NCBI GenBank assembly: GCA_039680605.1
Contig: JBDKTA010000054.1
Location: 62,001 to 126,000 of the forward strand
Reading direction: 5' to 3'
Origin: Planctomycetaceae bacterium
Lineage (GTDB): Bacteria > Planctomycetota > Phycisphaerae > SM23-33
Length of the DNA: 64,000 bases
The translations under genes were made by a program, and so were the position numbers. Shown one piece after another: positions 2 through 59,301 of the stretch; position 1 is the stretch's first letter; each line of letters opens with the position of its first letter. The notes below the pieces were generated by a model. It was given only the letters and a program-made list of their open reading frames with translations, was not told the DNA's origin and did not search any database.

Positions 2-550
2 CATCCCGACCAGTGCCCCAAGATCAAAATCAAAGGGGTGCTGTGGGCCGTGCCGCCCCGGTCGCCGTCCCTGCGGCCGGTATTCGACCCCTCGGGCGCG
101 GCCGTCCTGGAATGCCGCAGCGGCGAACCGTGGCCTCAGGCGGCAACGTGGGCCTCGTCGCGCCCCCGCGGCCACGACCACGTCTGCCCGGCCTGCAGGC
201 GGCCTATCGGCCAGCAGATTGAGATCGACCTGCGCGACGCGCAGGCGCTATCCTGGCTGTCGGAGGGCATCGCCCTGATGGGCCGGATGCTCGACGAGCA
301 GTACACCCTCGACGCGGCGGCCAAGGGGGACCTTCTGGCCTTCGAGGCCGGGATGTTCCCGGAGTACCTCATGCCGTTGCTGCGATGGTGCGTCGGCCTG
401 GAACCCTACGGCCAGTTCGACGACATCGACTGGACCGCCCTTGCGGCATCCGACCAGGACGCCCTGGCCGCCGAGTTGTCTTCCCCAGCGCCGGTCAGGC
501 GCGGCGGCGTCATTGCTCGAATCCTGAGAGGGCTGGTCTATGGCCGATGA
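2..550 (+). CDS. Phage tail-associated protein, 5' end cut by window edge
   Basis: The frame is open from base 2, so the true start lies outside the window; a GTG at 38 is only an internal possibility. The visible part is about 182 residues. It carries a C-x2-C pair (HVCPACRRP), probably one half of a zinc knuckle, followed by a mostly helical region. It overlaps the start of the tape-measure-like gene by 11 bases. The slot just before a tape measure usually holds a tail assembly chaperone, which is a guess from position only. No family was recognised. Confidence 0.6.
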   Translation, partial: HPDQCPKIKIKGVLWAVPPRSPSLRPVFDPSGAAVLECRSGEPWPQAATWASSRPRGHDHVCPACRRPIGQQIEIDLRDAQALSWLSEGIALMGRMLDEQYTLDAAAKGDLLAFEAGMFPEYLMPLLRWCVGLEPYGQFDDIDWTALAASDQDALAAELSSPAPVRRGGVIARILRGLVYGR

Positions 551-2228
551 AGTCATTCGAGCGCGGGTGGACCTTGAGACGCTGGAGGCTGAGCGCAACG
601 CCAGCCGGCTCGGCCAGGCGATGAACAAGGCCGGCCAGAGCGGCGCCGCCGGCATCAAGCCCACGCAAGGGGCGGTGGAAGCTTTAACCGGTTCGTTGAA
701 GAACGCATTTCATGGCGTGGTAGCACTGGGAGCTTCGTACCTGTCCCTGCAGGCGTTGATGGCCGCAATTCAGAAGATCAACGCTTCCTACGAGCGGTCG
801 ATCAAGCTTCGAGACGAGGCTACGCGCGGCGTGTCGGGCGCATGGAAGCAAGTCGCTCCTGCGGCCGCTCAATTCGGTGTCAGCGAGGACGCCATGCGCC
901 AGTACGTGATGGCCCTTGCCAAGCGGGCCGGCGCGGCTCCATCCGATATCGGCTCGATCGCGAACCTGATCACGCAGGCCAGTTCCTCTGGCATCATCGG
1001 CAACATCACCGAGAACGCCCAGGGTCAAGTGGTGGCCAGCGCCACCGACACGAACAAGCTGTCGATGATGGCCACCTTTGCCCAGTTCACCGCAGAGCCC
1101 GAGGTCGGCCCGGATCTGGCCAAGCTGCTCAGAAAGGGCATGGGTACAGACAACTCAACCGAGGGGCTGGCCAAATCGATAGGCCAGACCATGCAGGCCT
1201 TCCGGGGCAGCCAGATGAGCAGGTGGAGCGAGTTCATCTCCGGTGCGGTCTCCGGCGGCTCAACCCTTCTCGAACAAGGCGTCAGTTACCAAACGGTGCT
1301 TTCAGCCTATTCCGGCGCTGCCAAGATGACTCGAAGCGGCAATGCCGCCGGCGAACTGCTGCGAATCATCGGAGGTCGTTTCTTCGCCTCTGACGATCCG
1401 AAAGTCCGCGAGTTTATCGACCAGAAATACGGCCAGGGCGCTTACTGGCGGATGAAGGAGAAGGAGCCGGATAAGCTCTTCCGCTCCGTTCTGGACACGC
1501 TGACAACCGGTACGCCCGAGCAGCGGGCCGAACTCTACGATGCCCTCGAGATTCCGACCGAGCAGCGTGAGCAGCTGGCCCGCATGGCCGGCGGCCGAGC
1601 AGAAATGGCCAAGGTCGAAGCGATGGTGGGTCAGGGCACCGGCGAGGCGGCCCAGGCTGAATTGGCCCGGTGGCGCCGTGGCGGCCGGGCCGTCCTTCAG
1701 GCGGGCGAACTGGAGGGAGCCAACATCTCGCAGACCGCCGGAGCCGATCCAGGCGAAACGCTGTCGGCCTCTCTAAGGTCGATTTCCCAGGAGGAAATGA
1801 AGCTCTGGAATATGCAAGAGCCCGGCACCTTTGCGGCCGAGGACATGGTCACGCTCGACCGTGACATGGTCAACAAAGCCATGACGCGATACGTCAAGCG
1901 TAAGCTTAAGGGCAAGGTGGCCGGCTCAGAAAATATAGCCGTCGACGTCACCGGAAGCGGCGTGACGCTCAGTTATGAAACTCCGTTGGAAGACCGTGGG
2001 TATCCAAGCGAGGACAAGAGCCGTAAGGAAGAGGGGATAGTCCGCTCTTACGGCCCGGCCGTCGGGGAGGTCCTGGGCGAGGCCCTGGGCGTTCCGGTCG
2101 AGTCGCAGTTTAAAGCGGGCGACACATGGAACAAGCCTTCGGTGGTCGTTAACGTGGGGGTGGTATATCCCGTCACTCCCACCGACGCCGCCAACACCGA
2201 CCAGACCCGCGCCAGCGGAGCGAAATAG
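540..2228 (+). CDS. Tape-measure-like phage tail protein
   Basis: This 562-residue protein is rich in Ala, Gly and Gln and largely helical. It has an N-terminal amphipathic stretch (MADEVIRARVDLETLEAERN), then a hydrophobic segment around residues 55-80 (GVVALGASYLSLQALMAAI), as tape-measure or minor tail proteins have. Such proteins set tail length and pass through the tail tube during DNA ejection. It is short for a tape measure, which implies a short tail or a divergent system. The ATG at 540 follows a GAGAGGG ribosome-binding site and overlaps the preceding stop, so the two genes look translationally coupled. The assignment rests on composition and gene order. Confidence 0.6.
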   Translation: MADEVIRARVDLETLEAERNASRLGQAMNKAGQSGAAGIKPTQGAVEALTGSLKNAFHGVVALGASYLSLQALMAAIQKINASYERSIKLRDEATRGVSGAWKQVAPAAAQFGVSEDAMRQYVMALAKRAGAAPSDIGSIANLITQASSSGIIGNITENAQGQVVASATDTNKLSMMATFAQFTAEPEVGPDLAKLLRKGMGTDNSTEGLAKSIGQTMQAFRGSQMSRWSEFISGAVSGGSTLLEQGVSYQTVLSAYSGAAKMTRSGNAAGELLRIIGGRFFASDDPKVREFIDQKYGQGAYWRMKEKEPDKLFRSVLDTLTTGTPEQRAELYDALEIPTEQREQLARMAGGRAEMAKVEAMVGQGTGEAAQAELARWRRGGRAVLQAGELEGANISQTAGADPGETLSASLRSISQEEMKLWNMQEPGTFAAEDMVTLDRDMVNKAMTRYVKRKLKGKVAGSENIAVDVTGSGVTLSYETPLEDRGYPSEDKSRKEEGIVRSYGPAVGEVLGEALGVPVESQFKAGDTWNKPSVVVNVGVVYPVTPTDAANTDQTRASGAK

Positions 2229-2231
2229 CCC

Positions 2232-2645
2232 ATGGCAATCCCCAAGTTCAATAACGTCGAGCTGGTGACTCACGGGGCGCAGGAACTGCTGGGCGCGGCA
2301 GAGCCCCGCTTGGTGCTCGAGCACATGCCAGGCCTCGACGGGCAGTTCGTCCAGCCCCACGGCCGCAGCGGGCGCGACATCATCGTCACCGGCGTGGTCG
2401 CCGGAGGGGTCAACATCGATGTCGATATTGCCATGGCGATGTTCCGCACCAGCATGGAGACCCTCAACGATCTGGCCGACGGCAGGACAGTGGCCGGGTA
2501 CCACTCTGCCAATAACACGCCGTTCACAAACTGCGTCGTCAAGCGGGTCGAGCCTATCAGTCGCCTGATCATGGACAGGACCGCCGAAAGGGCCTACAGC
2601 TTCCGCCAGCACGTCCGATGGACCATACGGCAACTGTCGATCTAA
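2232..2645 (+). CDS. Small phage tail protein
   Basis: This 137-residue protein starts four bases after the tape-measure-like gene stops. It looks beta-rich, without a signal peptide or membrane segment (for example IIVTGVVAGGVNIDVDIAMA in the middle). Its place after the tape measure and before FN3-like and spike genes suggests a distal-tail or baseplate component. No family was recognised with confidence. Confidence 0.55.
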   Translation: MAIPKFNNVELVTHGAQELLGAAEPRLVLEHMPGLDGQFVQPHGRSGRDIIVTGVVAGGVNIDVDIAMAMFRTSMETLNDLADGRTVAGYHSANNTPFTNCVVKRVEPISRLIMDRTAERAYSFRQHVRWTIRQLSI

Positions 2646-2667
2646 TCGCAGTGGCGGGAGTATTGTC

Positions 2668-3411
2668 ATGGGCTACGACCTGACCGGCCTGACCGTCGTC
2701 GAGTGCCGCCGCTACGACCAGGGAAGGCTCTTGCGCGTGGCGTCGGCCCACGGCGACGGCAGCGCCGTCCAGTTGTACGTCAGCGGCCGACTGGCGGCCT
2801 GGCAGCATCCCGTGGCCGGCGTGGTCGAGTTCGTGCTGTCAGACTCGGGCGAGGCTGACGTGTTCTTTCTACTGGCCGTCGACGCCGATAGCGCGGCGAC
2901 CGATTACTGGGAGCAGGCCTTTCCCGAGGCCGCCGCCCACGGCAACCGCATCCGCGTCCGGGTGCCGCTGTACTTCACGTACGCCCCGGGCGACGTGCTG
3001 GAGATCTACCGCGGCGCCGCCGGAGAGGCCCTGGCCGACATCCTGGAGTACCGCACCGAGATCTTCCCCGGCGGCCGCGGCGCGTGTGGGCGGGGCATGG
3101 GCCGTCGAGGCTACGGCGGGAGGGGCTGGCATGTCGACAGCGCCGCCGGCCGGGGCATGGGCGGCCGCGGCTACGGCCCGCGCGGCTTCTACGCCTCGCT
3201 GCTGACGTGGCGCTCCGAGCCGCTGCCTCCGGGCACCTATAAGATTGCCGTACAGGTCACAGACGCCGCCGGCAACGTCTCGACGCAGTTCAGCGGCCTG
3301 GTGGTCCTGGACACGTACGCCCGGCCGGCCTCGGGCCTGACGGTCGAGTCTTACGACAAGGCTACCGACACGCTGAGCCTGTCCTGGACCCACAGCCCCG
3401 ACGTCTATTGA
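2668..3411 (+). CDS. Phage tail protein ending inside an FN3-like domain
   Basis: This 247-residue protein has a beta-rich N-terminal half and a Gly/Arg-rich linker near residues 140-170, with repeated RGMG and RGYG units. It ends with the first strands of a fibronectin type III-like domain (LSLSWTHSPDVY) and stops there, before the GYxVYR-type strand that normally follows. The ATG at 2668 follows a GCGGGAG site. The missing half of such a domain occurs in the spike gene at about 6115-6290, so the gene may have been split by an insertion (see findings). Probable baseplate or tail-fibre component. Confidence 0.55.
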   Translation: MGYDLTGLTVVECRRYDQGRLLRVASAHGDGSAVQLYVSGRLAAWQHPVAGVVEFVLSDSGEADVFFLLAVDADSAATDYWEQAFPEAAAHGNRIRVRVPLYFTYAPGDVLEIYRGAAGEALADILEYRTEIFPGGRGACGRGMGRRGYGGRGWHVDSAAGRGMGGRGYGPRGFYASLLTWRSEPLPPGTYKIAVQVTDAAGNVSTQFSGLVVLDTYARPASGLTVESYDKATDTLSLSWTHSPDVY

Positions 3412-3433
3412 GCCATCACAGAGAAGGTGAGCC

Positions 3434-4420
3434 ATGACCATCCCGACAGAACTGTTCCCAGACGACAGCGAGCTCAATGCCCTGGCCCAGACCCAGGACG
3501 CCGACACGGGCTTTACGTTCCTGGAGATCGCCGAAGCGCCAAGCTACACCAGCGAGCTTCGCGAGCAGTGGCACCTGCAGCGGATGGTCGCCCTGTCCAA
3601 CTCCCTCCGCGTGGTCAAGGACGGGGCGCTGACCTTCGGAGTGATGCCCGGGGCCTTCATGTACCGCGGCGCTTCCGTCGCGTACGCCGGTTCGCGGCTG
3701 CAGGCCCTTGTCGACGACAACACCAATTACATCTACCTCACCAGCGCCGGTGCGCTGACGGTCAACCAGACGGGATTCCCGGCCGCCGCCCACGTGCCAT
3801 TGGCGACGATCGTCACCGCCTCCGGCGACTACGACAACGACGACATCACCGACCAGCGCGGAGGGGCAGTCTTTGCCGCCGTCGGCCAGCAGGAACTGAC
3901 GAGCCTGCAGGTGGACCTGGTCTCCGGCGTGATCGACCCCGACGGCACGGTGATGGACGCCACCGGCGGGGCCGGCCTGTTCAAGCGCGTCCTGGGCGGC
4001 TGGGGATCGGGCACCTTTGTGCTCCAGGGCGAGGACGCCCAGGGCAACACCAAGACCGACACGCTGGCCGCCGTGGTGCAGCTTCCGGCGGATTATATCG
4101 CCGACGCCGACGTGAAGATCAACGTGCGGGCCAAGTACGCCGGGGCCGGCACAGCCGGGGCGAGCAAGACGATTGACGCGGAGGTCTACGAGCTGTCCGT
4201 CGACGGGGCGGTCGGGGCGGATCTGTGCGCCACCGCCGCGATCACGCTGACGGGCAGTTTCGCCGACTGCACGTTCACGATCACCGACGCGGGCCTGGTC
4301 GCCGGCGACCGCCTGATGGTGCTGATCCGCACCGTCCTGCAGGAGACCGGCGGGGCATCCGCGCTGGCCGCCCAGATCGGCAGCATTGCCCTGCAGTACG
4401 ACCGGGCGGTAGGGGCATAG
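3434..4420 (+). CDS. Phage tail/appendage protein of unknown function
   Basis: This 328-residue protein follows a GAAGG ribosome-binding site. The N-terminal part (to about residue 150) resembles receptor-binding or fibre-attachment proteins that carry short repeated beta segments (FTFGVMPGAFMYRG, NYIYLTSAGALTV). The C-terminal part is Ala/Thr/Gly-rich and beta-like. It has no signal peptide and no membrane segment. Its role is inferred only from position between tail genes and the spike gene. Confidence 0.5.
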   Translation: MTIPTELFPDDSELNALAQTQDADTGFTFLEIAEAPSYTSELREQWHLQRMVALSNSLRVVKDGALTFGVMPGAFMYRGASVAYAGSRLQALVDDNTNYIYLTSAGALTVNQTGFPAAAHVPLATIVTASGDYDNDDITDQRGGAVFAAVGQQELTSLQVDLVSGVIDPDGTVMDATGGAGLFKRVLGGWGSGTFVLQGEDAQGNTKTDTLAAVVQLPADYIADADVKINVRAKYAGAGTAGASKTIDAEVYELSVDGAVGADLCATAAITLTGSFADCTFTITDAGLVAGDRLMVLIRTVLQETGGASALAAQIGSIALQYDRAVGA

Positions 4421-4423
4421 GCA

Positions 4424-4455
4424 ATTTCCAATTTGCAATTTCCAATTGGGAATTA
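4424..4455. repeat. AT-rich TTTCCAATT-type palindromic repeat
   Basis: A short AT-rich block of TTCCAATTT, GCAATTTCC and AATTGGGAATT units lies between two phage genes. The same unit appears at 46508-46535, 49599-49628, 50612-50645 and 50691-50712, each time between genes. It stands out against the GC-rich background and can fold on itself. Confidence 0.7.
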
Positions 4456-4462
4456 AAAAACA

Positions 4463-4876
4463 ATGGCCAAGAAGAAACAACCTGTGATCGCGGTGGTCGC
4501 CCTGGAGGGCGACGACAAGGGGCGCAGGCCCGGCGACGTGATCCGCACTTTTGACGGCGGCGTCCCTGCAGGGACGCTCCTGCCGGCGGGCAATTCCCTG
4601 CTGGTCGATCCCGACGCTACGGACACTCCCGCCAAGCGGCGGGACCTGGTGCTGGCCGTGCTGACCAGGCGGGCCGACGCCGCCCGGGCGCAGGCCCAAG
4701 GCATGAAGCGACTGACCAGCAAACTCACGGTCGAAGCCATGAGCTCCGACCCGCTGGACCCGGCGACGGCTGGCAAACACGCCAAGGCCCGCGCGCAGGT
4801 GAAAGAGTCGCTGGCGGCGGAAGATTTTGCGACAGCCGCCCAGGCCCGTCTTGACGCCGCGCGAGGTGCCAAATGA
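4463..4876 (+). CDS. Small hypothetical protein of the phage module
   Basis: This 137-residue protein has a short beta-rich N-terminal part (to about residue 55) with a PGDVIRTF segment, then a charged, Ala-rich helical C-terminal half. It starts directly after an AT-rich repeat and its stop overlaps the ATG of the next gene (ATGA at 4873-4876). No family was recognised; the tight spacing says it is expressed with the tail genes. Confidence 0.55.
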   Translation: MAKKKQPVIAVVALEGDDKGRRPGDVIRTFDGGVPAGTLLPAGNSLLVDPDATDTPAKRRDLVLAVLTRRADAARAQAQGMKRLTSKLTVEAMSSDPLDPATAGKHAKARAQVKESLAAEDFATAAQARLDAARGAK

Positions 4877-5193
4877 CCCGCGTATATTACGTCGTCGACG
4901 CCCGCCCGGTCGAAAAGCAGCACGGTCTGCGGTTCCGTGGCAACATCGTCGCGGCCTGTCTGCTGCCGGTCGATCTGGGCTGCAAGGCGTTTCAATCCCA
5001 CGCCCTGACCGTGACGGAACTGGCCGACGATGATCCGCTGGTGCTGAAGCTCCAGGCCGTCGCCGCCACGGGCGAGCAGCCCATCGTGCCCTGGCCGTAT
5101 CAGACCTTTAAAACCGTTGCCGGCCCGGATGGCCCGATGGAAGTCACCGACGAACTCTGCCCTGTAGGCAGGAGGGTGGACCTTGGCAACTAG
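4873..5193 (+). CDS. Small hypothetical protein of the phage module
   Basis: This 106-residue protein overlaps the preceding stop by four bases and the following TTG start by 11 bases. It starts MTRVYYVVDARPV and appears beta-rich, without signal peptide or membrane segment. Function unknown; it belongs to the tail operon by its overlaps. Confidence 0.55.
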   Translation: MTRVYYVVDARPVEKQHGLRFRGNIVAACLLPVDLGCKAFQSHALTVTELADDDPLVLKLQAVAATGEQPIVPWPYQTFKTVAGPDGPMEVTDELCPVGRRVDLGN

Positions 5194-6715
5194 CATTGTT
5201 GGAACAGGCGGCGACTACGCCACGCTGGCACTGTGGGAGAGTGCGGGCGAAATCGAAACAGGCACCTGGATTGCCTCTTGCCTCTCTGGCAGCGACCTAC
5301 AGTGGTTCACTATTATCGGGGCGGGCTGGGCTGGCCGGCCGCCCATTTTCGAGAACGCCATTGGACATCGGCATGATGGGCAGACTGGGGGGGCATATTG
5401 TACGGCTGGCGCTTCCGCCCATTGCATCTGGAACAACATTACTGGACCAGTGATAGTCAGCGGCATTCATTTTTCAATCGCTGGGACCAAGGTTGGATAC
5501 CGGTTAGATGACAATTCGGGAGGGCATACTGGAGTAGTGATTGAGGACTGCCTGTTTGTTGTCACTTCATCTGGAACCAATACCCAAAGCATCTTTCTTC
5601 AGGAGAGCGGAAACAAGGCGCTAGGGGATGTCACCGTACGAAATTGCCTGTTCTACGGGGTGAACTCTCCGTCGGTGAACTACGGTATCCGGGTGAGCGT
5701 GTACCTGGCTTCATCAACGATAACCCTGAACGTCTATAACTGCTCGCTCTCCCGGATCAGCACCAACGCCGGCGGGCGTGGAATATCGCTTGTCAACGGC
5801 GCTGGCGCCATTACGTACGACATCAAGAACACCATCGCCGTCGGTACCACAACGGACTTCGCAATCAGTGGAGCCGGAACAAGGATCGACGCCGGCAGCA
5901 GCCACAACCTATCGAGCGATGCAACCGCCCCCGGAACGTCAGGCCTGATTAACCAGACCGCCGCCGATGTGTTCGTCAACGCCGCCAGCGATCTGCACCT
6001 CAAGGCGGGCAGCCCGGCCATCGGGGCAGGCAACAAGGTGCTGGACTTCGACGCCCTGGGCAACCCTCGCGGCACTCCCGACGATATGGGAGCTCTGACG
6101 ACGTACACGATCGTTGTCGTCGTGGACGGATACCGCCTCTATCGCGGCAGGGGAGGGCTTGCCAATGTCGACTTCTCGACGCCGATCGGCACTGCCGGCG
6201 TCGATGCCGGCGGCGTCACCTTGACGGCATTGGGTCATGACCCCGCGGCGCGATACACGTACGTCGTGCGGGCGGTCCGCAGAAACGCCCTTCAGCAATG
6301 GGTCGAGACGCCGGACTTCTCCTGCACAGCCCAGATCGAGACCGACGATCAGGGGCAATGGGTTGCCGATCGTCCCTGGGGATTGGGCAAGGTCTGGGCT
6401 CAACCAGCGGCGGCGGGAGAACTGCACGTGGGGTGGGAGTTTCAGACGCCCTACGGCGCGGCGGCGCCCGCCGGATTCGCGGTCTACAGCGGACCGGCCA
6501 GCGGGGCGGTATCGACGCGGCGGCTCTGGCAGCCGTACACGCGCGACGGGCTGTACCTCGCCGCACTCGATCTGCCCGACGGGACGCACTGGATTACCGT
6601 TACCGTCTGCAGCGGCGGCGGGGTGGAATCATGGCCGTCGCCGCCGGCGGGGCCTTTTGTGGTCGCCGGCACACCTGTGGTGCAACTGGCCATCCGTGTG
6701 GAGGAAACGCAATGA
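5183..6715 (+). CDS. Beta-helix tail spike-like protein with C-terminal FN3-like half domain
   Basis: Residues 1-300 have the look of a right-handed parallel beta-helix: many short Ile/Val/Asn strands (VIEDCLFVV, VTVRNCLFYGVN), then an LKAGSPAIGAG segment typical of these proteins. Residues 310-375 read as the second part of an FN3-like domain (VDGYRLYRG ... YTYVVRAV), followed by another beta region. A host-surface-binding or polysaccharide-degrading tail spike is likely. The TTG start at 5183 is chosen because GCAGGAGGG stands 7-13 bases upstream; the gene overlaps the previous one. The final ATGA is shared with the next gene. Confidence 0.65.
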   Translation: MATSIVGTGGDYATLALWESAGEIETGTWIASCLSGSDLQWFTIIGAGWAGRPPIFENAIGHRHDGQTGGAYCTAGASAHCIWNNITGPVIVSGIHFSIAGTKVGYRLDDNSGGHTGVVIEDCLFVVTSSGTNTQSIFLQESGNKALGDVTVRNCLFYGVNSPSVNYGIRVSVYLASSTITLNVYNCSLSRISTNAGGRGISLVNGAGAITYDIKNTIAVGTTTDFAISGAGTRIDAGSSHNLSSDATAPGTSGLINQTAADVFVNAASDLHLKAGSPAIGAGNKVLDFDALGNPRGTPDDMGALTTYTIVVVVDGYRLYRGRGGLANVDFSTPIGTAGVDAGGVTLTALGHDPAARYTYVVRAVRRNALQQWVETPDFSCTAQIETDDQGQWVADRPWGLGKVWAQPAAAGELHVGWEFQTPYGAAAPAGFAVYSGPASGAVSTRRLWQPYTRDGLYLAALDLPDGTHWITVTVCSGGGVESWPSPPAGPFVVAGTPVVQLAIRVEETQ

Positions 6716-8905
6716 CAGCCGTTCAACTGTATAAACCCGCGTCGCGAGGCTGCATGCTACGGCCGCCGCTGATGCGGGTCTACCATACCCCGGTTGTCGC
6801 GGGCCCGTCGCCGCGGTGGCGCACGGAGAGGCTTCGCCCGTACTGGACGCCGATTCACCTGCAGTGGCAGGCCGACGGCGCGCCGGCGGGGTTGGAGGTG
6901 TCCGTTGTGCTGGGCGCCGGTTCAAGCAAGTCCCGCCAACATTCCGAGGACGAGCATTGCCACGCCGGCGACCGCATCCGGCTGGTCCAGGTACACTCAG
7001 GCAGCGGCGGGGGGGGGCCTTGAGCTCGAATGGTTCTGCGGCGTTGTCGCCCGCCAGACGCTGGCGATCCAGTCCGGCCCGGATGTGGAGTCGTTCACGC
7101 TGACGGCGTGCGGGCCCGAGTTGCTGCTGAGCCAGAAGGTGATCGCCGGCCAATGGTGGCCGCGAGCTGACCTGGACGCCCTGGAAGTGCAGGGTGCCCT
7201 GACGAGCAGCGCCGCCTCACGCGAGGGCGTCTGGGAGTCGCGCCTGCCAGTGGTGCTCAACGGCGGCGGGATCGGCAATGCGTCAGGCAGCGACTGGCAG
7301 CTTGTCTGCCCGCCCGGCCAGACCGGCGCGACGCTGATCAACAAGTGCAAAGTCTTCGCCGCGCCCGGCCGGGCTGCCGGGCAAGCCCGCAGCGTTTACT
7401 GGACCCCGTATTCGGCCCTGCGGTCGGTGGTGGAATGGGTCGACGCCGGCGAGACGATCTCGACCCAGGCGACGAACTGGTCCGCCATCGAAGCGCTGCT
7501 GGGCCAGACGCCGCTGGCGACGCTGGACCTGACGGGCATGAACCTGGTCCAGGCCATGCGGGCGATCCTGGAGCCGCTGGGATACGGTTTCGCCATCGAG
7601 CCCTGGCGGGCCGACACGCATGGCGGGCATCGCCTGCTGGTCTTCCCCCGCAACGATCCGGCCAGGCAGGCGCAGGTGTACATGGCCGCCGCGGCAGCGG
7701 GGGTCTCGATCGCGTCCCCGCAGGGCCAGCGGGCGCAGGTGCAGTCGGTGCGGATCGTTCGCGACGCCCAGCAGGTGCGCAACCGCATTCTGGTCTGCGG
7801 CGGTCTCAAACGGACGCAGCGCACGCTGGCGTTTCATCACGACGGCGACACGCGCGACCTGCACCCGTTCTGGGACGCGGCTGTTCACGATCTGGCAGAC
7901 TACGCCCAGGACAATCTCATCGGGATGAGCAACCTCGCCGGCACCAGCGGCCTGGCGACCTGGCAGCAGCGGTACAGCGGAACCGACGAGCAATACGGCC
8001 ACGTCTTTCGCACGTTCGCGTGGAACGAGGACGGCGCCCTTTCGGCGCTCGTCGCCGACGGCCAGGGCGCGCCGCGGATGCCGGACCTGTCGGCGCTGGG
8101 GCGCGACGGCGAAGCCGCCCGCCGGCCCAGGCCCATCGGTCCGCGATTCGAGTTCGCCGACGCCGGCGCGGCGGGGGCGCTCAAGGCCCCGCTGGTGGAA
8201 CTGGGGCTGGCCAGCTATCAGGGCGGGCAGCACGTCGAGGACGCCGATGCGTGGATCGCCCTGGCGCCCAGCCAGGTGCTGGTGCGAAAGGATCGTGCCG
8301 CCGTGACGATTCTCGTGCCGGACCTGCTGGCGTGGCGGCCTTGGATGGCGAACCGAAAAATCTCGCAAGGTCAGTCGCTGCATTACCGCTACGGCCATCT
8401 CAATTACGCCACGCTGCTGCACAACGCGTTGCGAGCGGCCGAGGATGGCAGCGTCATGCTGCGCCTGCGAGTGACCGGCTCGATCGAGATGGATGATTGC
8501 GTCGGTCACGAGGCCGCCCGCTTGAGCGAGTCGGCATGGCCGTTCGACGCGGCGGCGCTGGTGCGCGCCGGTGAGCGGTTCAAGTATCGCGCGGTGGGCG
8601 AGACGGTCAGTCCGTCGCTGAGCGCCACGGTGGATGATACGCCGGCGCTTGAGGCACTGGCCCAGCGCGTGCGAGCGGCCGGTCAGGACGCCGCCACGCA
8701 GGGGTCGGTCCTGCTGCGGGGCCTGCAGCGGGCGTACGCGCCTGGGATGGCGCTGGCGAGCCTGCAGGGACGCGGCATCGACCTGGCGCCGCGACGCAGC
8801 GTCGAGGGCGCCTTACAGCGCGGCGTGCCGGCGATCGTCGCGGTGCGATGGAGCTTCCAGAACGGCGGCGCAGGCAAGACGGAACTGAACGTGGCCTCTC
8901 ACTGA
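6712..8905 (+). CDS. Phage tail hub/tip-like protein, reading frame broken at a G9 run
   Basis: The ATG at 6712 overlaps the spike stop (ATGA). The first frame runs to a TGA at 7021-7023, right after a run of nine G (7009-7017). Skipping one base in that run carries the reading into a frame that stays open to 8905, giving a product of about 730 residues. The downstream frame contains a segment (QVRNRILVCGG) like those of gp27-type hub domains and long beta-rich parts. Function as hub or tail tip is inferred from size and position. The break may be a sequencing error, a real mutation, or a length-variable switch; one base fewer in the G run restores the gene. Confidence 0.6.
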
Positions 8906-9765: not shown

Positions 9766-9852
9766 CCGTAGCACGGGCATCTTGCCCGCCAGTAGCATGG
9801 GCGTCCCGCCCATGCTCCCCGCGTGGCATGGGCGTCCCGCCCATGCTCCCCG
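9766..9852. repeat. Palindromic repeats of the GGGCGTCnCGCCC family, three units
   Basis: Three near-identical hairpin units lie in tandem (a GGGCATCTTGCCC type and two ATGGGCGTCCCGCCCAT types). The same family recurs at 11086-11140, 14695-14975, 16410-16612, 35150-35262, inside a gene at 47279-47307, and at 63958-64000. The arms pair well, so each unit could form a stem-loop in RNA or cruciform DNA. Confidence 0.85.
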
Positions 9853-14606: not shown

Positions 14607-14970
14607 GGTTTCTTCCCGCAAGGGTAGCGAACTGGTATGCCAGATGATGGCACACCTGAGCCGACTCCGCAAAATATTTTCTGCCGGCGGCGGGGCGTGT
14701 CGCGGACGTCTCGTCCGCGTGTACCGCGGGCGTCTCGCCCGCGAGGTGGCATGGATGTGTGGGCTTGCGTCGGGGAGCATGGGCGAGACGCCCATGCCAC
14801 ACGGGGAGCGAGGGCGGAATGCCCATGCCACACGGGGAGCGAGGGCAGGATGCCCTCGGCACGCGCGGGCGAGACGCCCATGCTACTCACGGGCAAGATG
14901 CCCGTGCTACTCATGGGCGAGACGCCCATGCTACTGGTGGGACGCCCATGCTACTGGCGGGACGGCTGCG
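14607..14970. repeat. Dense block of GGGCGAGACGCCC-type palindromes (14695-14975)
   Basis: After about 90 bases of ordinary upstream DNA, this gap holds at least eight hairpin units of the same family in a row, such as CATGGGCGAGACGCCCATG and CACGGGCAAGATGCCCGTG, many separated by the same GCTACT or CCACAC joints. The arrangement looks like repeated insertion or local amplification. The block runs into the stop of dnaB. No gene is seen. Confidence 0.85.
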
Positions 14971-16308: not shown

Positions 16309-16628
16309 GGCTGGTCTCCTTTGTACCATGCCAGGACTGTAAGCAACTGCTGTGACAGATGGTGTCATAGCGGGAGGGGTCTCGCAAAATGAATCCGCAG
16401 TGGAGTTCCTTCGTGTCGCGGACATCTTGTCCGCGCGTGCTGCGGGCGTCCCGCCCGCGGAATCCGGGGAGCGAGGGCAGGATGCCCTCGGCACGCGCGG
16501 GCGGGACGCCCGCGACACGACGGGGGAGTATGGGCGAGACGCCCATGCCACTCACGGGCGAGACGCCCGTGCTACTCATGGGCAAGATGCCCATGCTACG
16601 GTCGGGGTGGCCGTGATATGATGCGGGC
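16309..16628. repeat. Palindromic repeat block (16410-16612)
   Basis: Between dnaB and the LigD-type gene lie about seven units of the GGGCGTCCCGCCC / GGGCAAGATGCCC family, joined by the same short linkers as at 14695-14975. Bases 16309-16409 show no gene. Confidence 0.8.
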
Positions 16629-24127: not shown

Positions 24128-25735
24128 CTATGGCAGCGGGGGTAATCCGAGCTCTTTCAAGTATCCGTTGTGCTTTGTCTTCGCGGCCTGGATGGCTTTC
24201 TCGATTTCTACCAACTCGTCATGAGTCGCCGCCAGATCGATTTCCTGTTCCTGTTGGGCAGTGCTGACGTAACGCGATATGTTCAGATTGTAGTCGTTGG
24301 CAACGATTTCCTTCATCCCGACGCGCCGGGAATACCGTTTCTCTTTCTTGCGGAACTGGTATGTCTCGATGATCTTATTGATATCCTCTTCCGTCAGTTG
24401 GTTCTGGCGCTTGCCTTTCTGGAAGTGTTCGCTGGCATTGATGAAGAGCACGTCGTCGGGCTTTTTGCACTTCTTGAGCACGAGAATGCAGACCGGGATG
24501 CCAGTCGAATAGAACAAGTTGGCCGGGAGGCCGATCACCGTATCAATGTGTCCGTCATCAAGCAGTTTTGTGCGGATGCGTTCCTCCGCACCGCCCCGGA
24601 ACAGAACACCGTGCGGCAGGATGATCGCCATCACACCTTCGTCCTTGAGGTAGTGAAACCCGTGCAGGAGAAATGCAAAGTCGGCCGCGCTCTTGGGGGC
24701 AAGCCCATGGTTCTTGAACCGTACATCCTGGCCCATCGCCTCGCTCGGGTCCCAGCGGTAGCTGAAGGGAGGATTGGCCACCACTGCGTCGAACTTGGGC
24801 ATCTTCGCCGGGTTGCTTTCCCGGAGCATATCCCAGTCGTTGGTCAGCGTATCACCGTGGTAGATTTCGAACTCTGAATCTTTCACTCCGTGCAGCAGCA
24901 TGTTCATGCGGGCCAGGTTGTAGGTGGTGATATTCTTTTCCTGACCAAAGATCTTACCAATCCCATGCGAGGGCATCATATTCCGCACGTTCAGCAGGAG
25001 TGAGCCCGATCCGCAGGCGAAGTCGAGGACGCGTTCTAATCGCGGCTTCTTCCCCGTGGCCGGCTCCTGGCTGTCCAACGTGACGATTGCGGAGAGGATG
25101 CTCGAAATCTGCTGCGGCGTGTAAAACTCGCCCGCTTTCTTGCCTGACCCTGCGGCAAACTGGCCGATCAGGTATTCGTAGGCGTCCCCCAGCGCGTCGA
25201 TGTTCGTGGAGAACTCGGCCAGTCCCTCGGCGATTTTCTGGATGATCGTGCAGAGTTTGGCGTTACGGTCACTGTAGGTTTTGCCAAGTTTATCGGAGCC
25301 AAGATTGATTTCGGAGAACAAGCCCTGAAAGGTGCTCTCAAAGGATTCATTCTCGATGTACTTGAAACCAGCCTGGAGGGTGTTAAGCAGATCGGTACTC
25401 TGCGTGCGGGCCATGTTGGCGATACTGGCCCAAAGGTGGTCAGGCTTGATTACGTAGTGTACCTTGCGGCGCATCTGTTTTTCAAACTCCACCACGTCAT
25501 CGGGGTTGTTGGCATACCACACGGCCAGCGAAACGCAGCGCTGGTCGTCGGCAACCTTCGGGTAGTCTGACCCCAGTTCCCTCCTGGCGGCGGCGTCATA
25601 GTTGTCAGATAGATACCGCAGGAACAGGAACGCCAGCATGTAGTCGCGGAAATCATCCGCATTCATCGCGCCCCGTAGTTGGTCGGCGATGCTCCAAAGT
25701 GTTTGCCCCAGTTGTCTTTGGTCACGGTCGTTCAT
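24128..25735 (-). CDS. hsdM: Type I restriction-modification DNA methyltransferase subunit HsdM
   Basis: This 535-residue N6-adenine methyltransferase subunit has the HsdM N-terminal helical domain, the SAM-binding motif DFACGSGS (residues 238-245) and the catalytic motif NPPF (321-324). Two HsdM with one HsdS methylate the recognition sequence and protect the host DNA. It is the last gene of the operon; its ATG at 25735 overlaps the stop of the PrrC-like gene (ATGA). Length is usual. Confidence 0.96.
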   Translation of the reverse strand: MNDRDQRQLGQTLWSIADQLRGAMNADDFRDYMLAFLFLRYLSDNYDAAARRELGSDYPKVADDQRCVSLAVWYANNPDDVVEFEKQMRRKVHYVIKPDHLWASIANMARTQSTDLLNTLQAGFKYIENESFESTFQGLFSEINLGSDKLGKTYSDRNAKLCTIIQKIAEGLAEFSTNIDALGDAYEYLIGQFAAGSGKKAGEFYTPQQISSILSAIVTLDSQEPATGKKPRLERVLDFACGSGSLLLNVRNMMPSHGIGKIFGQEKNITTYNLARMNMLLHGVKDSEFEIYHGDTLTNDWDMLRESNPAKMPKFDAVVANPPFSYRWDPSEAMGQDVRFKNHGLAPKSAADFAFLLHGFHYLKDEGVMAIILPHGVLFRGGAEERIRTKLLDDGHIDTVIGLPANLFYSTGIPVCILVLKKCKKPDDVLFINASEHFQKGKRQNQLTEEDINKIIETYQFRKKEKRYSRRVGMKEIVANDYNLNISRYVSTAQQEQEIDLAATHDELVEIEKAIQAAKTKHNGYLKELGLPPLP

Positions 25736-26943
25736 TGTGCGGGTCCTGGTGAGGCCGATGCTGCTTGCGCAGATGCGGCTGCCGGCGCTACTGCCACTGT
25801 GGCTGCTTGTGCAGGTATGGCTGCCGGCGCTACTGCTACTATAGCTGCTTGCGCGGGTGTGGCTGCTGTCTTCTCCAGAAGATCCGGCAGTGCGAAGCTG
25901 TAACGAGTGAAGAAGGCGGTAAGGATGTCCTGAAAGAGGGATTTATTATCGTCACCCATTTCCCGTGGTTCGTAGAGGGAGTACGCGCCGTGACTCAGAA
26001 CGTTCAGCGCCCTTGAGTAGAAGGCCTGATCCTTTTCCCCATCCAAGCAGTCTGCAAAGGAGTGATACCCGAAGAAGACCGCCGTCTTCTCCAAAACACT
26101 TCGAAGCATGTTGAAGTGATAAGTGTAGAGGATTCCCGATTCTGCTGCGGATTGAAGCTCGCTCAACATCGCGACATGGTGAAAGAAGGGAGTATCGTCT
26201 GTGGCACGCAGCGTAAGTTCATCTCCATTACGTGGCCGATCCAGGAAGTACTTCTTGTGAGGAATCTTCTTGAACTCGTTGGCAATAACGTTGAAAAAGA
26301 GCGCGTGATGCGACGAGATAACGGCCTTGCACCGGCCCCTTCCCTTCTTAAGCAACTTCGCCAAATCGCTCGCCACTGCGATGGCGTTGTTATCATCAAG
26401 TGAGGAAATGGGATCATCAATGTAGAAGTACTTCACCCACGAATAGGATTCCTGGCCGTCGATTACCCTTTCGCAAATAGCCATGAAGAGGCACCAGATG
26501 AAGATATTTTCTTCCCCCCGCGAAATCTTGATGTTGGAGTTATCTCCCTTGCGAAAACTGACGGTCCAAGCGGTATAGTCGATGTCAAAGTCGAAGTCGG
26601 CGTACCTGCCCAGATATGCTTGTATGCTTTCCTCCAAGGCCAAATCCCTCAGGCCAGCGAAGAACTTGGATTCCGAGTTAATTCTCAGCTTCCGGTCACT
26701 GTCATCCTCAAAATCATTGTCCCACGTAAAAAGATCTTCGGTATAGGCATTGAAGTAGAGCGTATCAGGAGTACCCTTGTTCTGTCGCTTCCCGGCCTCC
26801 TTGAACTCCATAGAAAGTCTGGTCTTGCCTACGCGGTTATAGGCGTAGACGAACACAAAGTCGGAGTTGGCAAGGTCCCTCCGCACTCGCGACCCAAGCG
26901 TCTGCATCGTTCTATATCGATGGATTGTTGGAATACTGCTCAT
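25732..26943 (-). CDS. PrrC-like anticodon nuclease/ATPase inside the hsd operon
   Basis: This 403-residue protein has an ABC-type ATPase half with an unusual Walker A (AYNRVGKT, residues 34-41; the first Gly is Ala), an SRGEENIF signature (141-148), Walker B IDDPISSLDD (175-184) and an ISSHH H-loop (209-213). The C-terminal half has R281-x3-E285 and H318. In PrrC anticodon nuclease the catalytic triad is R320, E324 and H356, with almost the same spacing. PrrC is held silent by the type I enzyme and cuts tRNA-Lys when a phage inhibits it. Here the gene overlaps hsdS (ATGA at 26940-26943) and hsdM by four bases each. The Ala-rich tail after residue 358 is unusual. RloC-like alternatives are less likely because no coiled-coil/zinc-hook insert is seen. 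Confidence 0.75.
   Translation of the reverse strand: MSSIPTIHRYRTMQTLGSRVRRDLANSDFVFVYAYNRVGKTRLSMEFKEAGKRQNKGTPDTLYFNAYTEDLFTWDNDFEDDSDRKLRINSESKFFAGLRDLALEESIQAYLGRYADFDFDIDYTAWTVSFRKGDNSNIKISRGEENIFIWCLFMAICERVIDGQESYSWVKYFYIDDPISSLDDNNAIAVASDLAKLLKKGRGRCKAVISSHHALFFNVIANEFKKIPHKKYFLDRPRNGDELTLRATDDTPFFHHVAMLSELQSAAESGILYTYHFNMLRSVLEKTAVFFGYHSFADCLDGEKDQAFYSRALNVLSHGAYSLYEPREMGDDNKSLFQDILTAFFTRYSFALPDLLEKTAATPAQAAIVAVAPAAIPAQAATVAVAPAAASAQAASASPGPAQ
25757..25870 (-). repeat. 42-base tandem repeat coding an Ala-rich tail
   Basis: About 2.6 copies of a 42-base unit (14 codons) encode repeats like PAQAATVAVAPAA at the C-terminus of the PrrC-like protein, just before the overlap with hsdM. 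The copies differ at a few bases. Whole-unit changes would keep the frame, so the tail length can vary without loss of either gene. Confidence 0.85.
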
Positions 26944-28247
26944 GCTTCACTCTCCTGAGGGGAGGGGAAAAGTTGCTGCATTAGGCCTCTCTTGTGGACC
27001 CTGAGGGCAACGACCTTCGTGGCTTGACTGAGCATTACCGTATCAAGGGAAGCGAGGCAACCGGCAACTCGTTGCTGCTCACCCTTTGTAGGGGGACGTG
27101 GAATCAGAAAAGACCGAATCTGCCCGAAGTTCAAACCTTGCCTGTTGCCGCCGGCTTGAAAGTTGTCGATTTGCTTTTGGCCTCGGTCCGAGATCAGGTA
27201 TTGATTGAGCAACACCGGATAAAGCTCGTTCTGCTTCAGTCGGATAATACAGACGTGCTGATTGACGTTGCCGCCGACAATTCTCGAATCTGCGACCGCA
27301 CTTCTACCGATTGACGCTCCGGTAATGTTCAGAAGGACGTCAGAAGGCTGAATTTCGGACGCAACGAATGACTTGTGCGTTTCCTCGTCTATGTACGCAA
27401 CGTCTTCCAATATTAGCTCTCCCCAACCTACGTTTTGGCTACGGATAAATGGCCGACCGCTCGACTTGTAGTTCTTGTCGCCCCCGAGGGGAGTAATTCC
27501 GCTGCCGATCCTACTGGTCATTGGCCCGAGTTCGTACATTTCCCACGCCGGAGCGCTGCAAAACTCGGGAAAACGGAGGCGCGAGCGAGTTTCGCCTTCT
27601 CGCGGAAAGAGAAGCTGCATCAGTCCTTGTTTGTGGGCCCGCATCGCCTCCAACTTCCGGACCTCGGCGGCAATTAGCTCGTCCAGCGAAGTCAGACAGT
27701 CGGCGATCTTCTGCTGCTCAGCGGAGGAGGAACTCCCGCTCGGGACGGGGACGGGCAACCTCATCAGATCGTCGTCGTTCACACTCAGGGAGCCGTGAGC
27801 GCGCGCACCGATGGTGATGTATTTCTTCAGCCACCTGCCATGCAGATTGCCTGCGAAAACATAGTCAAGATATGCCGGATCAATTTGTAACTCGTCCGGT
27901 CGAAAGCAGGTGAAGATGCTGTTGGGAACTGCGGCTTGGTCCTTGCCCAGGTATCGTGCGATGTAACCTTGGGGGAAGGCTTTCGTGGCACTCTTGTTGT
28001 ACGCAAAGTCGTTCTTCTTCAGCCGGAGATAGTTCTTGAGTGAGTCGCCCGCAATTGTGCGGCCAAATTTGTTCTCCTGGCTCACCAGCCCAACTCCGGT
28101 CGTGACTGTGTAGGGCGTGCATTGGGTTGTGCCGACTCGGTCATCAATCAATGTTGCGATTTGTGCAAGGGGCTTTTGAATCCAGCTATCCCTGAACTCG
28201 GGAAACCGCAGCTTCGGAATTAGCGTGTGTTTGGTATCGCCCTTCAT
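26940..28247 (-). CDS. hsdS: Type I restriction-modification specificity subunit HsdS
   Basis: This 435-residue protein has two target-recognition domains, each followed by a conserved helix. PKLRFPEF begins the first half and SRLRFPEF the second, and LTSLDELIAAEVRKLEAM and LASLDTVMLSQATKVVAL end the halves. HsdS chooses the bipartite DNA site for methylation and cleavage. It starts 4 bases after hsdR stops and its stop overlaps the next start. The two recognition domains look different from each other, as usual. Confidence 0.95.
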   Translation of the reverse strand: MKGDTKHTLIPKLRFPEFRDSWIQKPLAQIATLIDDRVGTTQCTPYTVTTGVGLVSQENKFGRTIAGDSLKNYLRLKKNDFAYNKSATKAFPQGYIARYLGKDQAAVPNSIFTCFRPDELQIDPAYLDYVFAGNLHGRWLKKYITIGARAHGSLSVNDDDLMRLPVPVPSGSSSSAEQQKIADCLTSLDELIAAEVRKLEAMRAHKQGLMQLLFPREGETRSRLRFPEFCSAPAWEMYELGPMTSRIGSGITPLGGDKNYKSSGRPFIRSQNVGWGELILEDVAYIDEETHKSFVASEIQPSDVLLNITGASIGRSAVADSRIVGGNVNQHVCIIRLKQNELYPVLLNQYLISDRGQKQIDNFQAGGNRQGLNFGQIRSFLIPRPPTKGEQQRVAGCLASLDTVMLSQATKVVALRVHKRGLMQQLFPSPQESEA

Positions 28248-28251
28248 CGTT

Positions 28252-31221
28252 TCACTGCTCGTATGCGCTTAGTCCCGAAATATCCCGGCCGGCGGCGCGC
28301 TTCTTCAGCAGCGGCACCAGGTCGGCCATGAGTGCCAGTTCTTTTTCCCTGCGTTGTCGCCAGTTCAGGCCCAGCGGTTCCATCAGGACGGTAAGCTGTT
28401 CGCCGTCGAAGATCATACGGCCGAGGATGGTGTCGATGAATTCCTGCAGGGCGCCGGGCGACAGGCCGTGCTTACTGGCCTGTTGGGCAAGCTCGGCGGC
28501 GTTCCTCTGGGCCTTGAAGAGATGGTACCCCTCGCGAACGCCTTTCTCGTCCAGCCTCTTACCCGCTTCGAGAGAGCGGACATAGTCGGTGATGATCTCG
28601 CGCTCGTCCATGAACTTGGCATCGGACGCGATAAGGCCGATCAGCCTTTCGCGGCTCATCTCCCACTTGGCCGGGGTCTGCTGCGAATACCGGGCGATCA
28701 GGGCCATGATGTAGTCGTAATCGATCAGGGCCGAGGCGAAGAGGACAAACTCAAAGTCAAGTTGATCTGCCCCAGTTGCGTCGCCACTCTTGCCGCGCTG
28801 CTCCCTGAGCCGCTGGGCCGTTTCGAGGTAGACGCCGCGGAAGCCCTTGAGATGTTCCTCGGGCAGAATCTGCTCGATAGTCTTCTTCTGTTCTTCGGAA
28901 AGATCGGTGTACTGGTCGAGTTGGGTCTGGAGGCGCTGCACTTCCTTGAAGCGGAGGATGAACTGAGCGCGGGCGTCGTCCCCCTTGAGATTCGGCACGT
29001 CTTCCGGTCTGGGCTGGAGGCCCTGCGACTTCATAAACTCGCCCAGGTCGCCGACGGCGGTCTTGAGCTTTTCGATGACGACGGGGGCCTTGTCCACAAG
29101 CCAGATTTCTCGGGCCTTCTCCATCTCGGCCCCGGAGAAGAGAATCACGGCGGCATCGACGGCGGCCTGCTGCTGGCGGAAGTCGAGGATGTTTCCGTAG
29201 GGCTTGGTGGCATTGAGGATGCGGTTTGTGCGGGAAAGAGCTTGGATCAGCCCGTGGTGCTTGAGGTTCTTGTCCACGTAAAGCGTGTTGAGATACTTTG
29301 AGTCGAAACCGGTCAGGAGCATATCGACAACGATGGTGATGTCGATCTTCTCCCGGCCTTTCTTGGGCAGGTCGGCGTTGGGGAACTGCTGGTCTTTGAT
29401 GCGCTTCTGGACATCCTGATAGTAAAGATCGAACTCGAAAAGGGAGTGATTGGTGTCGAAGCGGGCGTTGTAATCGGCGATGATGGCCTTGAGGGCTTTC
29501 TTCTTCTTTTCGGGCTCCTGCTCGTTGTCGGCCTTTTCCTGCGGCAGGTCCTCCTGAATCTGTTTCACGTCCGGGTTATCATCGGCGGGTGGGGAGAAGA
29601 CGGCGGCGATGTTGAGGGGGACAAATTCAGGATCGGCCTGCTGCTTCTCCGCCTGCACGGTCTGGAAGAGGTCAAAGTACTCGATGGCCTGGTTGATGGA
29701 GGCGGTGGCCAGAAGAGCGTTGAACCTGCGCCCGCCGGTGGCCGCGTCGTGTTTGGCGAGAATGGCCTCAACGACAGCGCGCTTGGTCAGGGTTTCGCCG
29801 GGCTTTACGGCTTGGCCGTCGGGCTTGTAGTAATCCACGTGAAAACGCAGGACGTTCTGGTCCTCGATGGCGTGGGTGATGGTGTAGGCATGGAGTTCTT
29901 TCTCGAAGAGGTCCTGCGTGGTTCTATAGGTGGCCTGATCGCCTTCGATCTTCTGGTAGGTGGCGTTCTCTTCAAAGATGGGCGTGCCGGTGAACCCGAA
30001 GAGCTGCGCGTTGGGGAAGAACTCCTTTATGGCCTGATGGTTGTCGCCGAACTGGGAGCGGTGGCACTCGTCGAAGATGAAGACCATGCGCTTCTTGCGG
30101 AGCGATTCGAGGCGCTGCTTGTAGTTGCGCCGGTTCGTGCCATCCAGCGCCAGGCCGAGCTTCTGGATGGTGGTGACGATCACTTTGTCGGCGTAGTCCT
30201 CGGATAGGAGCCGGCGGACGAGCGTTTCGGTGTTGGTGTTTTCCTCGACGCAGCCTTCCTGAAACTTATTGAACTCCTCCCGCGTCTGGCGGTCCAGGTC
30301 CTTGCGGTCCACGACAAAGAGGCACTTTTCGATGTCGGGGTTGTCCTTGAGGAGCGTGGAAGCCTTGAAGGAGGTGAGCGTTTTTCCGCTGCCGGTGGTG
30401 TGCCAGATGTAACCGTTACCGCAGTTTCGGTGGATGCAGTCCACAATGGCCTTGACCGCGTAGATCTGGTACGGCCGCATCATCAGCAGCTTCTGTTCGC
30501 TAGCGATGAGAACCATATAGCGGCTGATCATCTGGCCCAGGGAACACTTGAGAAGGAACTTCTCCGCGAAAGTGTCAAGGTGGGTGATCTTGGTGTTGTC
30601 TTCGGCCGCGAACTGGTAGACGGGAAGGAATCGCTCCTCGGCGTTGAAGCTGAAGTGGCGGGCGTTGTTGTTGGCGAAGTACCAGGTGTCAGTGCGATTG
30701 CTGACGATGAACAATTGGATGAAGCACAGGAGGGTGCGAGTGTAGCCGTTTCCCGTATCGTTCTTGTAGTCGACGATCTGCTCCATGGCCCGGCGAGGGC
30801 TGATGCCGAGGGTTTTCAGTTCAATCTGGACGGCCGGCACGCCGTTGATGAGCAAAATGACATCGTAGCGGTGGTGGCTGTAGTCGGTATTGATGCGGAG
30901 TTGATTGACCACCTCAAAGGTGTTCTTGCACCAGTCCTTAATGTTGACCAGCGTGTAATTCAGAGGCGTGCCATCGTCACGGATGAAGCTGTTAATGTCG
31001 CGAAGCCTACGGGCAGCGGTGAATACATCCGGCGTGATGATTTCATCCAGCAGTCGCTGGAATTCGCCGTCGGTCAGTTGGACGCGGTTGAGCGCGTCGA
31101 ACTTCTGTCGGAAATTGTTCTCCAGCGTGTCGCGGTCTCGGATGTCCGATCGGTATTCGTATTTCAGGCTGCGGAGCTTCTCGATAAGCTGTTCTTCAAG
31201 ATGGCGTTCGGGTGAACTCAT
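28252..31221 (-). CDS. hsdR: Type I restriction endonuclease/translocase subunit HsdR
   Basis: With the ATG at 31221 the protein has 989 residues. It carries a PD-(D/E)XK nuclease core (D120, E134-x-K136), then a superfamily 2 helicase motor with TTGSGKT (residues 275-281) and DECH (384-387), and a C-terminal helical part. HsdR pulls DNA through the complex and cuts unmethylated DNA away from the site. A TTG seven codons upstream is possible but has no better ribosome-binding site. It leads the operon hsdR-hsdS-prrC-like-hsdM. Confidence 0.96.
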   Translation of the reverse strand: MSSPERHLEEQLIEKLRSLKYEYRSDIRDRDTLENNFRQKFDALNRVQLTDGEFQRLLDEIITPDVFTAARRLRDINSFIRDDGTPLNYTLVNIKDWCKNTFEVVNQLRINTDYSHHRYDVILLINGVPAVQIELKTLGISPRRAMEQIVDYKNDTGNGYTRTLLCFIQLFIVSNRTDTWYFANNNARHFSFNAEERFLPVYQFAAEDNTKITHLDTFAEKFLLKCSLGQMISRYMVLIASEQKLLMMRPYQIYAVKAIVDCIHRNCGNGYIWHTTGSGKTLTSFKASTLLKDNPDIEKCLFVVDRKDLDRQTREEFNKFQEGCVEENTNTETLVRRLLSEDYADKVIVTTIQKLGLALDGTNRRNYKQRLESLRKKRMVFIFDECHRSQFGDNHQAIKEFFPNAQLFGFTGTPIFEENATYQKIEGDQATYRTTQDLFEKELHAYTITHAIEDQNVLRFHVDYYKPDGQAVKPGETLTKRAVVEAILAKHDAATGGRRFNALLATASINQAIEYFDLFQTVQAEKQQADPEFVPLNIAAVFSPPADDNPDVKQIQEDLPQEKADNEQEPEKKKKALKAIIADYNARFDTNHSLFEFDLYYQDVQKRIKDQQFPNADLPKKGREKIDITIVVDMLLTGFDSKYLNTLYVDKNLKHHGLIQALSRTNRILNATKPYGNILDFRQQQAAVDAAVILFSGAEMEKAREIWLVDKAPVVIEKLKTAVGDLGEFMKSQGLQPRPEDVPNLKGDDARAQFILRFKEVQRLQTQLDQYTDLSEEQKKTIEQILPEEHLKGFRGVYLETAQRLREQRGKSGDATGADQLDFEFVLFASALIDYDYIMALIARYSQQTPAKWEMSRERLIGLIASDAKFMDEREIITDYVRSLEAGKRLDEKGVREGYHLFKAQRNAAELAQQASKHGLSPGALQEFIDTILGRMIFDGEQLTVLMEPLGLNWRQRREKELALMADLVPLLKKRAAGRDISGLSAYEQ

Positions 31222-35149: not shown

Positions 35150-35262
35150 GCGTGCCATGCCCGTGTGGCATGGGCGTCTCGCCCATGCTCCCGCCGTGTG
35201 GCATGGGCGTCTCGCCCATGCTCTTGCCGTGTGGCATGGGCGTCTCGCCCATGCTCCCCCGG
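35150..35262. repeat. Three GTGTGGCATGGGCGTCTCGCC-type palindromic units
   Basis: Three almost identical units of about 34 bases each follow the FNT gene in tandem. They match the family at 14695-14975. As stem-loops right after the asr operon they could also act as a transcription end, though no T tract follows. Confidence 0.85.
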
Positions 35263-58512: not shown

Positions 58513-59301
58513 TCACTCATTGGAGGCCGGCGCCGGGGCGGCGTCGCCGGTCTTGGGCTGGGCGCCTCTGCGCGAGCCGTCACGGCCGGGGCCTCGGCGG
58601 CCTGCCGGACGGAGCTTCTGCATCTGGGCCTTCTGCTCGTCGGTCATGGTCGAGCGGACCTTTTCCATCGCGGTGCGCATGATCTCGCGTTTCTTCTGCG
58701 CGTCGTCGGTCTTGGCGGCTTCTTCGCGGGCGGTCTTCATGACGGCCTTCTGATCGTCGGTGAGGATCTTGTCCATCTCCTCGCGGCCTTTGGCCTCGCG
58801 TTCGCTGCGCATTTTGGCGAGCTGGTCTTTCTGTTCCTGGGTCATGGAGGCCTGGACCTTGTCCATGGCGGCCTTCATGATCTCGCCCTTCTTTTCGCGG
58901 GAGTCGGCTTTGGCGGCTTCTTCGCGAGCGGTTTTCAGGACGGCCTTCTGCTCGTCGGTGAGGACCTTGTCCATGTCGCCCATTCCGCGCATGCCCGGTC
59001 CGCGCTGTGCTTCGGCGGCGGCGATCTTGGCCTTCTGCTCGTCGGTCAGAGAGGCCTGGACTTTATCCATGGCGGCCTTGTGAATCGCGGCCTTCTTCTC
59101 GGGGGTGTCGGCCTTGGCGGCCTCTTCGCGAGCGGCTTTCATGACGGCCTTCTGCTCGTCGTTGAGCACCCGCATCATGGGCATGCGGTTTTGTCCTCTC
59201 TGGCGGACGGCGGGTTTGGCGTCGCCGGCTTCCTGGGCCAGGGCGGGCAGGGCGATGGCCGCGACGGCCAGCACCAGCGCTACAGTCACGATACGTTTCA
59301 T
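58513..59301 (-). CDS. Secreted Spy/LTxxQ-like protein with three internal repeats
   Basis: This 262-residue protein has a signal peptide (residues 1-22, cut near ALA-Q) and three repeats of about 60 residues, each like LTDEQKAVLKTAREEAAK...KAAMDKVQASMTQEQK. LTxxQ-type helical repeats occur in periplasmic chaperones Spy and CpxP, so a periplasmic chaperone or metal/stress role is possible. The C-terminus is Arg/Gly/Pro-rich. The ATG at 59301 is preceded by GGAGTCTGACC. Confidence 0.8.
   Translation of the reverse strand: MKRIVTVALVLAVAAIALPALAQEAGDAKPAVRQRGQNRMPMMRVLNDEQKAVMKAAREEAAKADTPEKKAAIHKAAMDKVQASLTDEQKAKIAAAEAQRGPGMRGMGDMDKVLTDEQKAVLKTAREEAAKADSREKKGEIMKAAMDKVQASMTQEQKDQLAKMRSEREAKGREEMDKILTDDQKAVMKTAREEAAKTDDAQKKREIMRTAMEKVRSTMTDEQKAQMQKLRPAGRRGPGRDGSRRGAQPKTGDAAPAPASNE

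Follow-up and report, generated by a model that had tools for sequence, protein, structure and literature searches.

PrrC170 of Klebsiella quasipneumoniae was cloned as HsdR-HsdS-PrrC-HsdM and is 35% identical to the E. coli protein EcoPrrC; it blocks T1 and T7, produces growth arrest on induction and has tRNA-Lys as its target as determined by tRNA sequencing (PMC11555353). For EcoPrrC, PMC3014915 describes peptide 284-294 as the anticodon contact responsible for tRNA-Lys specificity, and the nuclease domain of PrrC has been assigned to the HEPN fold (PMC3710099). The EcoPrrC reference used here for all comparisons was a natural E. coli copy of 396 aa on plasmid CP057689 (locus L085), which was checked by its R320/E324/H356 numbering, with order and residues as given in PMC3014915.

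The window, meaning the whole 64,000-nucleotide stretch of DNA analyzed, carries a prrC gene in the same gene order and the same type I restriction-modification (R-M) context as the PrrC170 system. The four genes of the operon are as follows:

28252 to 31221, minus strand: hsdR, type I restriction subunit (Pfam HSDR_N, SWI2_SNF2, ResIII, T1R_D3-like and EcoR124_C; PADLOC REase_I, 1138 bits)
26940 to 28247, minus strand: hsdS, specificity subunit (Pfam Methylase_S, E=5e-14; PADLOC Specificity_I, 300 bits)
25732 to 26943, minus strand: prrC, latent anticodon nuclease, 403 aa (PADLOC PrrC, E=1.9e-135)
24128 to 25735, minus strand: hsdM, methyltransferase subunit (Pfam HsdM_N and N6_Mtase, E=9.5e-106; NPPF motif)

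Each of hsdR, hsdS and hsdM contains the expected domains in an intact frame, and all are on the same strand as prrC. The hsdR open reading frame opens with a TTG at 31242, and the internal ATG at 31221 is the likelier start. With hsdS running to 26940 and hsdM beginning at 25735, there is a four-base ATGA overlap at both prrC junctions, confirming the first-pass annotation of a 403-aa reading frame between hsdS and hsdM that overlaps both neighbours. A typA-like gene lies on one side of the operon and sulfite-reductase/ferredoxin-type genes on the other, as judged by eye. The GC content of the operon (0.50-0.58) was below that of its flanks (0.59-0.68), which suggests that the operon was acquired.

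PADLOC model PDLC02360 for PrrC matched residues 12-361 of the window protein with 450 bits (E=1.9e-135), as compared with 490 bits (E=7.7e-148) for EcoPrrC and 471-473 bits for the Klebsiella/E. coli plasmid relatives; other PADLOC families reached at most 48 bits on the window protein. The Pfam match was to AAA_13 (E=1.9e-11) and the NCBIfam search returned no match, while PDB sequence searches with both the protein query and the family profile gave no significant match and no solved PrrC relative. By tblastn 241 relatives were confirmed, and none was found in the phage records searched. Aligned over 342 residues, the window protein and EcoPrrC share 33% identity; with other PrrCs of the hsdR-hsdS-prrC-hsdM (R-S-C-M) type the window protein shares about 50-71%. 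The family model, the alignment with EcoPrrC including the catalytic triad, the type I R-M operon and the published R-S-C-M PrrC that targets tRNA-Lys together support assignment of the gene to the PrrC family of anticodon nucleases, as a new copy of an already known anti-phage system. This agrees with the initial proposal of a PrrC-type nuclease in a type I restriction operon.

Conservation was counted across 83 aligned homologues, the window protein and EcoPrrC included, at the following motifs:

26821 to 26844, minus strand: Walker A, AYNRVGKT, residues 34-41 (Ala34 in 83/83)
26395 to 26424, minus strand: Walker B/D-loop, YIDDPISSLD, residues 174-183 (D183 corresponds to EcoPrrC D222)
26089 to 26103, minus strand: catalytic R281-x3-E285 (R in 83/83, E in 82/83)
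25990 to 25992, minus strand: catalytic H318 (82/83)

In the alignment R281, E285 and H318 lie opposite R320, E324 and H356 of EcoPrrC, with a Glu-to-His spacing of 33 in the window protein versus 32 in EcoPrrC, so the PrrC-like R281-x3-E285...H318 pattern noted at first pass stands. When the homologues were inspected for loss of the triad, as had been proposed, its three residues were kept in 83/83, 82/83 and 82/83; the single substitution at the E285 position is by Asp and that at the H318 position by Arg. Residues D176, D177, P178, S181, L182 and D183 were each kept in 83/83, and Walker A, the degenerate signature, Walker B/D-loop and the linchpin His were conserved over all 83 homologues. 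The sequence AYNRVGKT had been read correctly, but its description as degenerate and unusual did not hold. EcoPrrC, with AFNGTGKT, also has Ala at the first Gly position, and as Ala is universal there in the 83 homologues it is a family trait; the degenerate Walker A was therefore rejected as an oddity. The one Arg at the catalytic His position (LSRG) belongs to the prrC of a Planctomycetota MAG (L038:251-1441). That copy is possibly inactive, or the change is possibly a sequencing error, since the contig name gives very low coverage.

The gene, its operon, its family membership, its catalytic and ATPase residues and the host tRNA-Lys(UUU) are direct observations. Our preferred reading, to which we assign a probability of roughly 0.87, is that the window PrrC is a member of the R-S-C-M branch, an Hsd-held, ABC-gated R-E-H nuclease that would cut host tRNA, most likely tRNA-Lys(UUU), on perturbation by phage. 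The ATGA overlaps would couple translation of prrC to that of the restriction subunits, and the type I enzyme would keep PrrC silent by holding it in a complex. Through nucleotide binding and hydrolysis, the Rad50/PtuA-like ABC head may detect blockage or perturbation of the restriction complex when a phage infects, and then free the C-terminal R-E-H nuclease, which would cut the anticodon loop of a host tRNA, most probably tRNA-Lys(UUU), and so stop translation. We infer latency, trigger, cleavage and substrate of the window PrrC from EcoPrrC and PrrC170.

With respect to the tRNA substrate, genes for both tRNA-Lys(UUU), whose anticodon loop is CUUUUAA, and tRNA-Lys(CUU) are present in the host genome. 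The part of the protein aligned with the EcoPrrC contact peptide is:

26182 to 26202, minus strand: residues 248-254, opposite EcoPrrC anticodon-contact peptide 284-294 in the alignment (D250 = D287)

Here KYGDSNKSFS of EcoPrrC is aligned with TD-DT--PFF of the window protein, and only D250 (D287) and F253 are shared. This divergence means that the substrate could differ from that of EcoPrrC, and PMC3014915 allows that variability of the segment among PrrCs may mean variable substrates. A catalytically live PrrC-family nuclease with a tRNA target other than tRNA-Lys(UUU), owing to its differing contact segment, is nevertheless unlikely, at about one chance in five, as PrrC170, with the same operon order, targets tRNA-Lys, the plasmid relatives L082 and L105 have the same DTPFFHHV segment as the window protein, and the acidic contact residue is Asp or Glu in 80/80 members of the window branch. 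tRNA-Lys is our best guess for the substrate.

All four genes were found in R-S-C-M order on one strand in 60/80 loci fetched from genome contigs; with L082 and L105 from plasmids, and the window locus counted twice, the full listing comes to 64 R-S-C-M loci. The remaining 20/80 lacked one or two of the genes, through contig ends or a divergent hsdS that escaped detection, but were otherwise in that order, and in three of these incomplete loci an hsdS-like match lay beyond hsdM. The EcoPrrC operon order was found in 0/80 loci of the window branch, and the three complete Eco-type loci were all M-(S)-C-R. The R-S-C-M order is the rule for the window-type PrrC branch, and the search for hsdR-hsdS-x-hsdM elsewhere that had been suggested at the outset thus recovered it in many phyla. 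ATGA junctions were present in relatives at the 5' end in 40/71 testable cases and at the 3' end in 30/73.

In a maximum-likelihood tree, rooted at the midpoint and with long separating branches, the Eco-type and window-type branches stood apart with full support. The window PrrC branched beside the one from a Thiotrichales MAG, with mostly Pseudomonadota around them, a placement that points to horizontal spread. Relatives occur in many phyla, mostly Pseudomonadota and Bacteroidota, and the origin of the system is not planctomycetal. The planctomycete context itself has weak backing: PF07596, a family associated with planctomycetes, gave 3 matches, of which 2 exceeded the cut-off, against none in 14 control genomes. 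Strong PrrC matches were present in 2/392 genomes of the window's phylum, and 34 other genomes of its family contained no true PrrC relative. With this locus, an intact R-S-C-M-type PrrC is recorded in a phylum that rarely carries the system; the known picture of PrrC is unchanged. PrrCs form two well-separated branches with differing operon orders and tRNA-contact segments, which bears on generalising the EcoPrrC mechanism.

A genome of the same phylum (G040) has two PrrC loci, the Eco-type L086, whose match contains one in-frame TGA, and C11:67885-69051. On the L105 plasmid, genes for an RNA-binding protein and a TrlF-like ATPase separate hsdR from hsdS, and additional stretches of ~0.9-4 kb interrupt the series of R, S, C and M genes at L009, L012, L016, L029, L073, L082 and L105, suggesting that this operon type has recurrent cargo sites. 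Some Klebsiella and E. coli plasmids (OW849538, OW968246 and NC_019069) have a prrC that is broken into two parts or lacks annotation, which suggests that the gene has been inactivated repeatedly.

The C-terminal end of the window PrrC is encoded by a repeat:

25760 to 25866, no strand assigned: tandem repeat with a 42-base unit, coding for the Ala-rich tail at about residues 360-395 (TRF score 158)

The repeat comprises 2.5 copies with 84% matches; it keeps the reading frame and leaves the ATGA junction intact, and no second copy was found elsewhere in the genome. An Ala-rich tail built from a 42-base tandem repeat had been recognized at first pass; it covers about 36 residues (360-395), however, not the last 45, and what was called unusual is the extreme case of a C-terminus that varies family-wide. 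Beyond the F-x-LP motif the tail differs in length among homologues and is often Ala/Pro-rich (e.g. L007, L018, L038 and L075), the longest Ala-rich tail is that of the window PrrC, and repeat expansion was seen in the window genome only. Tail residues 353-398 had pLDDT values below 50 and are predicted to be disordered. Most likely the tail is a dispensable extension without fixed structure. Slippage of the repeat might vary tail length between strains and so adjust docking of PrrC on the restriction complex or coupled translation with hsdM, a highly improbable idea in our estimation; the 34 other genomes of the same taxonomic family held no close relatives to show copy-number variation.

The P-loop and the tail also bear on whether this copy is still functional. 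Position 37 is Gly in 72/83 homologues and Arg in 8/83, the window protein included, and this Arg37 or the repeat tail, the latter expanded only in the window genome, might have abolished function and left a structural R-M accessory. We consider such decay very unlikely. The other seven Arg37 relatives form one clade near the window protein and retain frame and motifs, the catalytic and ATPase residues of the window PrrC are all intact with departures from strong family consensus at only five positions, all mild, and the tail keeps both the frame and the ATGA junction.

Elsewhere in the window, a dispersed palindromic motif, GGGCGAGACGCCC, had 16 occurrences at ≤1 mismatch versus 0.39 expected, partly as tandem arrays, at these sites:

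9799-9842, 11095, 14728-14927, 16444-16568, 35172-35250, 47288 and 63965: motif GGGCGAGACGCCC

Positions 540-8905 on the plus strand contain open reading frames which by eye resemble phage tail/structural proteins; these may form a prophage or a tail-like element. Well away from the operon, at 58624-59170 and 59825-59963, long tandem repeats have unit lengths of 204 and 36 bases, both multiples of three, so that the repeats are possibly coding.

The full-length AlphaFold model of the window PrrC had a mean pLDDT of 78 and a pTM of 0.63. Among solved structures the best matches to the ABC head were PtuA, RecN, Rad50 and SMC, with low whole-chain TM-scores. The C-terminal domain modelled alone was a small helical bundle predicted with confidence (mean pLDDT 86); a fold search of this domain against the PDB gave no significant match, and Pfam gave no domain within it. 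The coiled-coil with CXXC zinc hook that is the hallmark of RloC was absent from both the 403-aa sequence and the model. While the general AAA_13 match in Pfam and the resemblance of the head to PtuA, RecN and Rad50 could speak for an RloC/AAA_13-type or PtuA-type ABC-ATPase nuclease, this identity has a negligible chance of being correct and was rejected on family scores (450 bits for PrrC versus ≤48 for any other PADLOC family) and size (403 aa is too short for the RloC coiled-coil/zinc hook), and the type I R-M operon location is rare for RloC (PMC2610378).

Like EcoPrrC and its EcoprrI system (prrABCD), the window locus combines an ABC head and C-terminal R-E-H nuclease with an Ala-type Walker A, the D-loop Asp and a type I R-M operon. 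It differs in its 33% identity, in the hsdM-hsdS-prrC-hsdR order of EcoprrI and in the tRNA-contact peptide, and the HsdM and HsdR of EcoprrI are only about 33-38% identical to their window counterparts. Among solved structures, those of PtuA (Septu, retron-Eco7) come closest to the ABC head; PtuA works with a partner, PtuB, and is not known to have an R-E-H C-domain of the PrrC kind. RloC likewise fuses an ABC-ATPase to an R-x3-E...H anticodon nuclease, but it contains a coiled-coil/zinc-hook insert, removes the wobble nucleotide by excision and is seldom R-M-linked (PMC2610378). Identity to EcoPrrC is 35% for both PrrC170 and L082/L105 and 33% for the window PrrC. L082 and L105, likely relatives of PrrC170, have short tails and are 50-52% identical to the window PrrC. 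Because these two, with the same identity to EcoPrrC as PrrC170, fall in the window branch, PrrC170 is very probably a member of this branch that has been tested by experiment, as judged by its identity figure and gene order.
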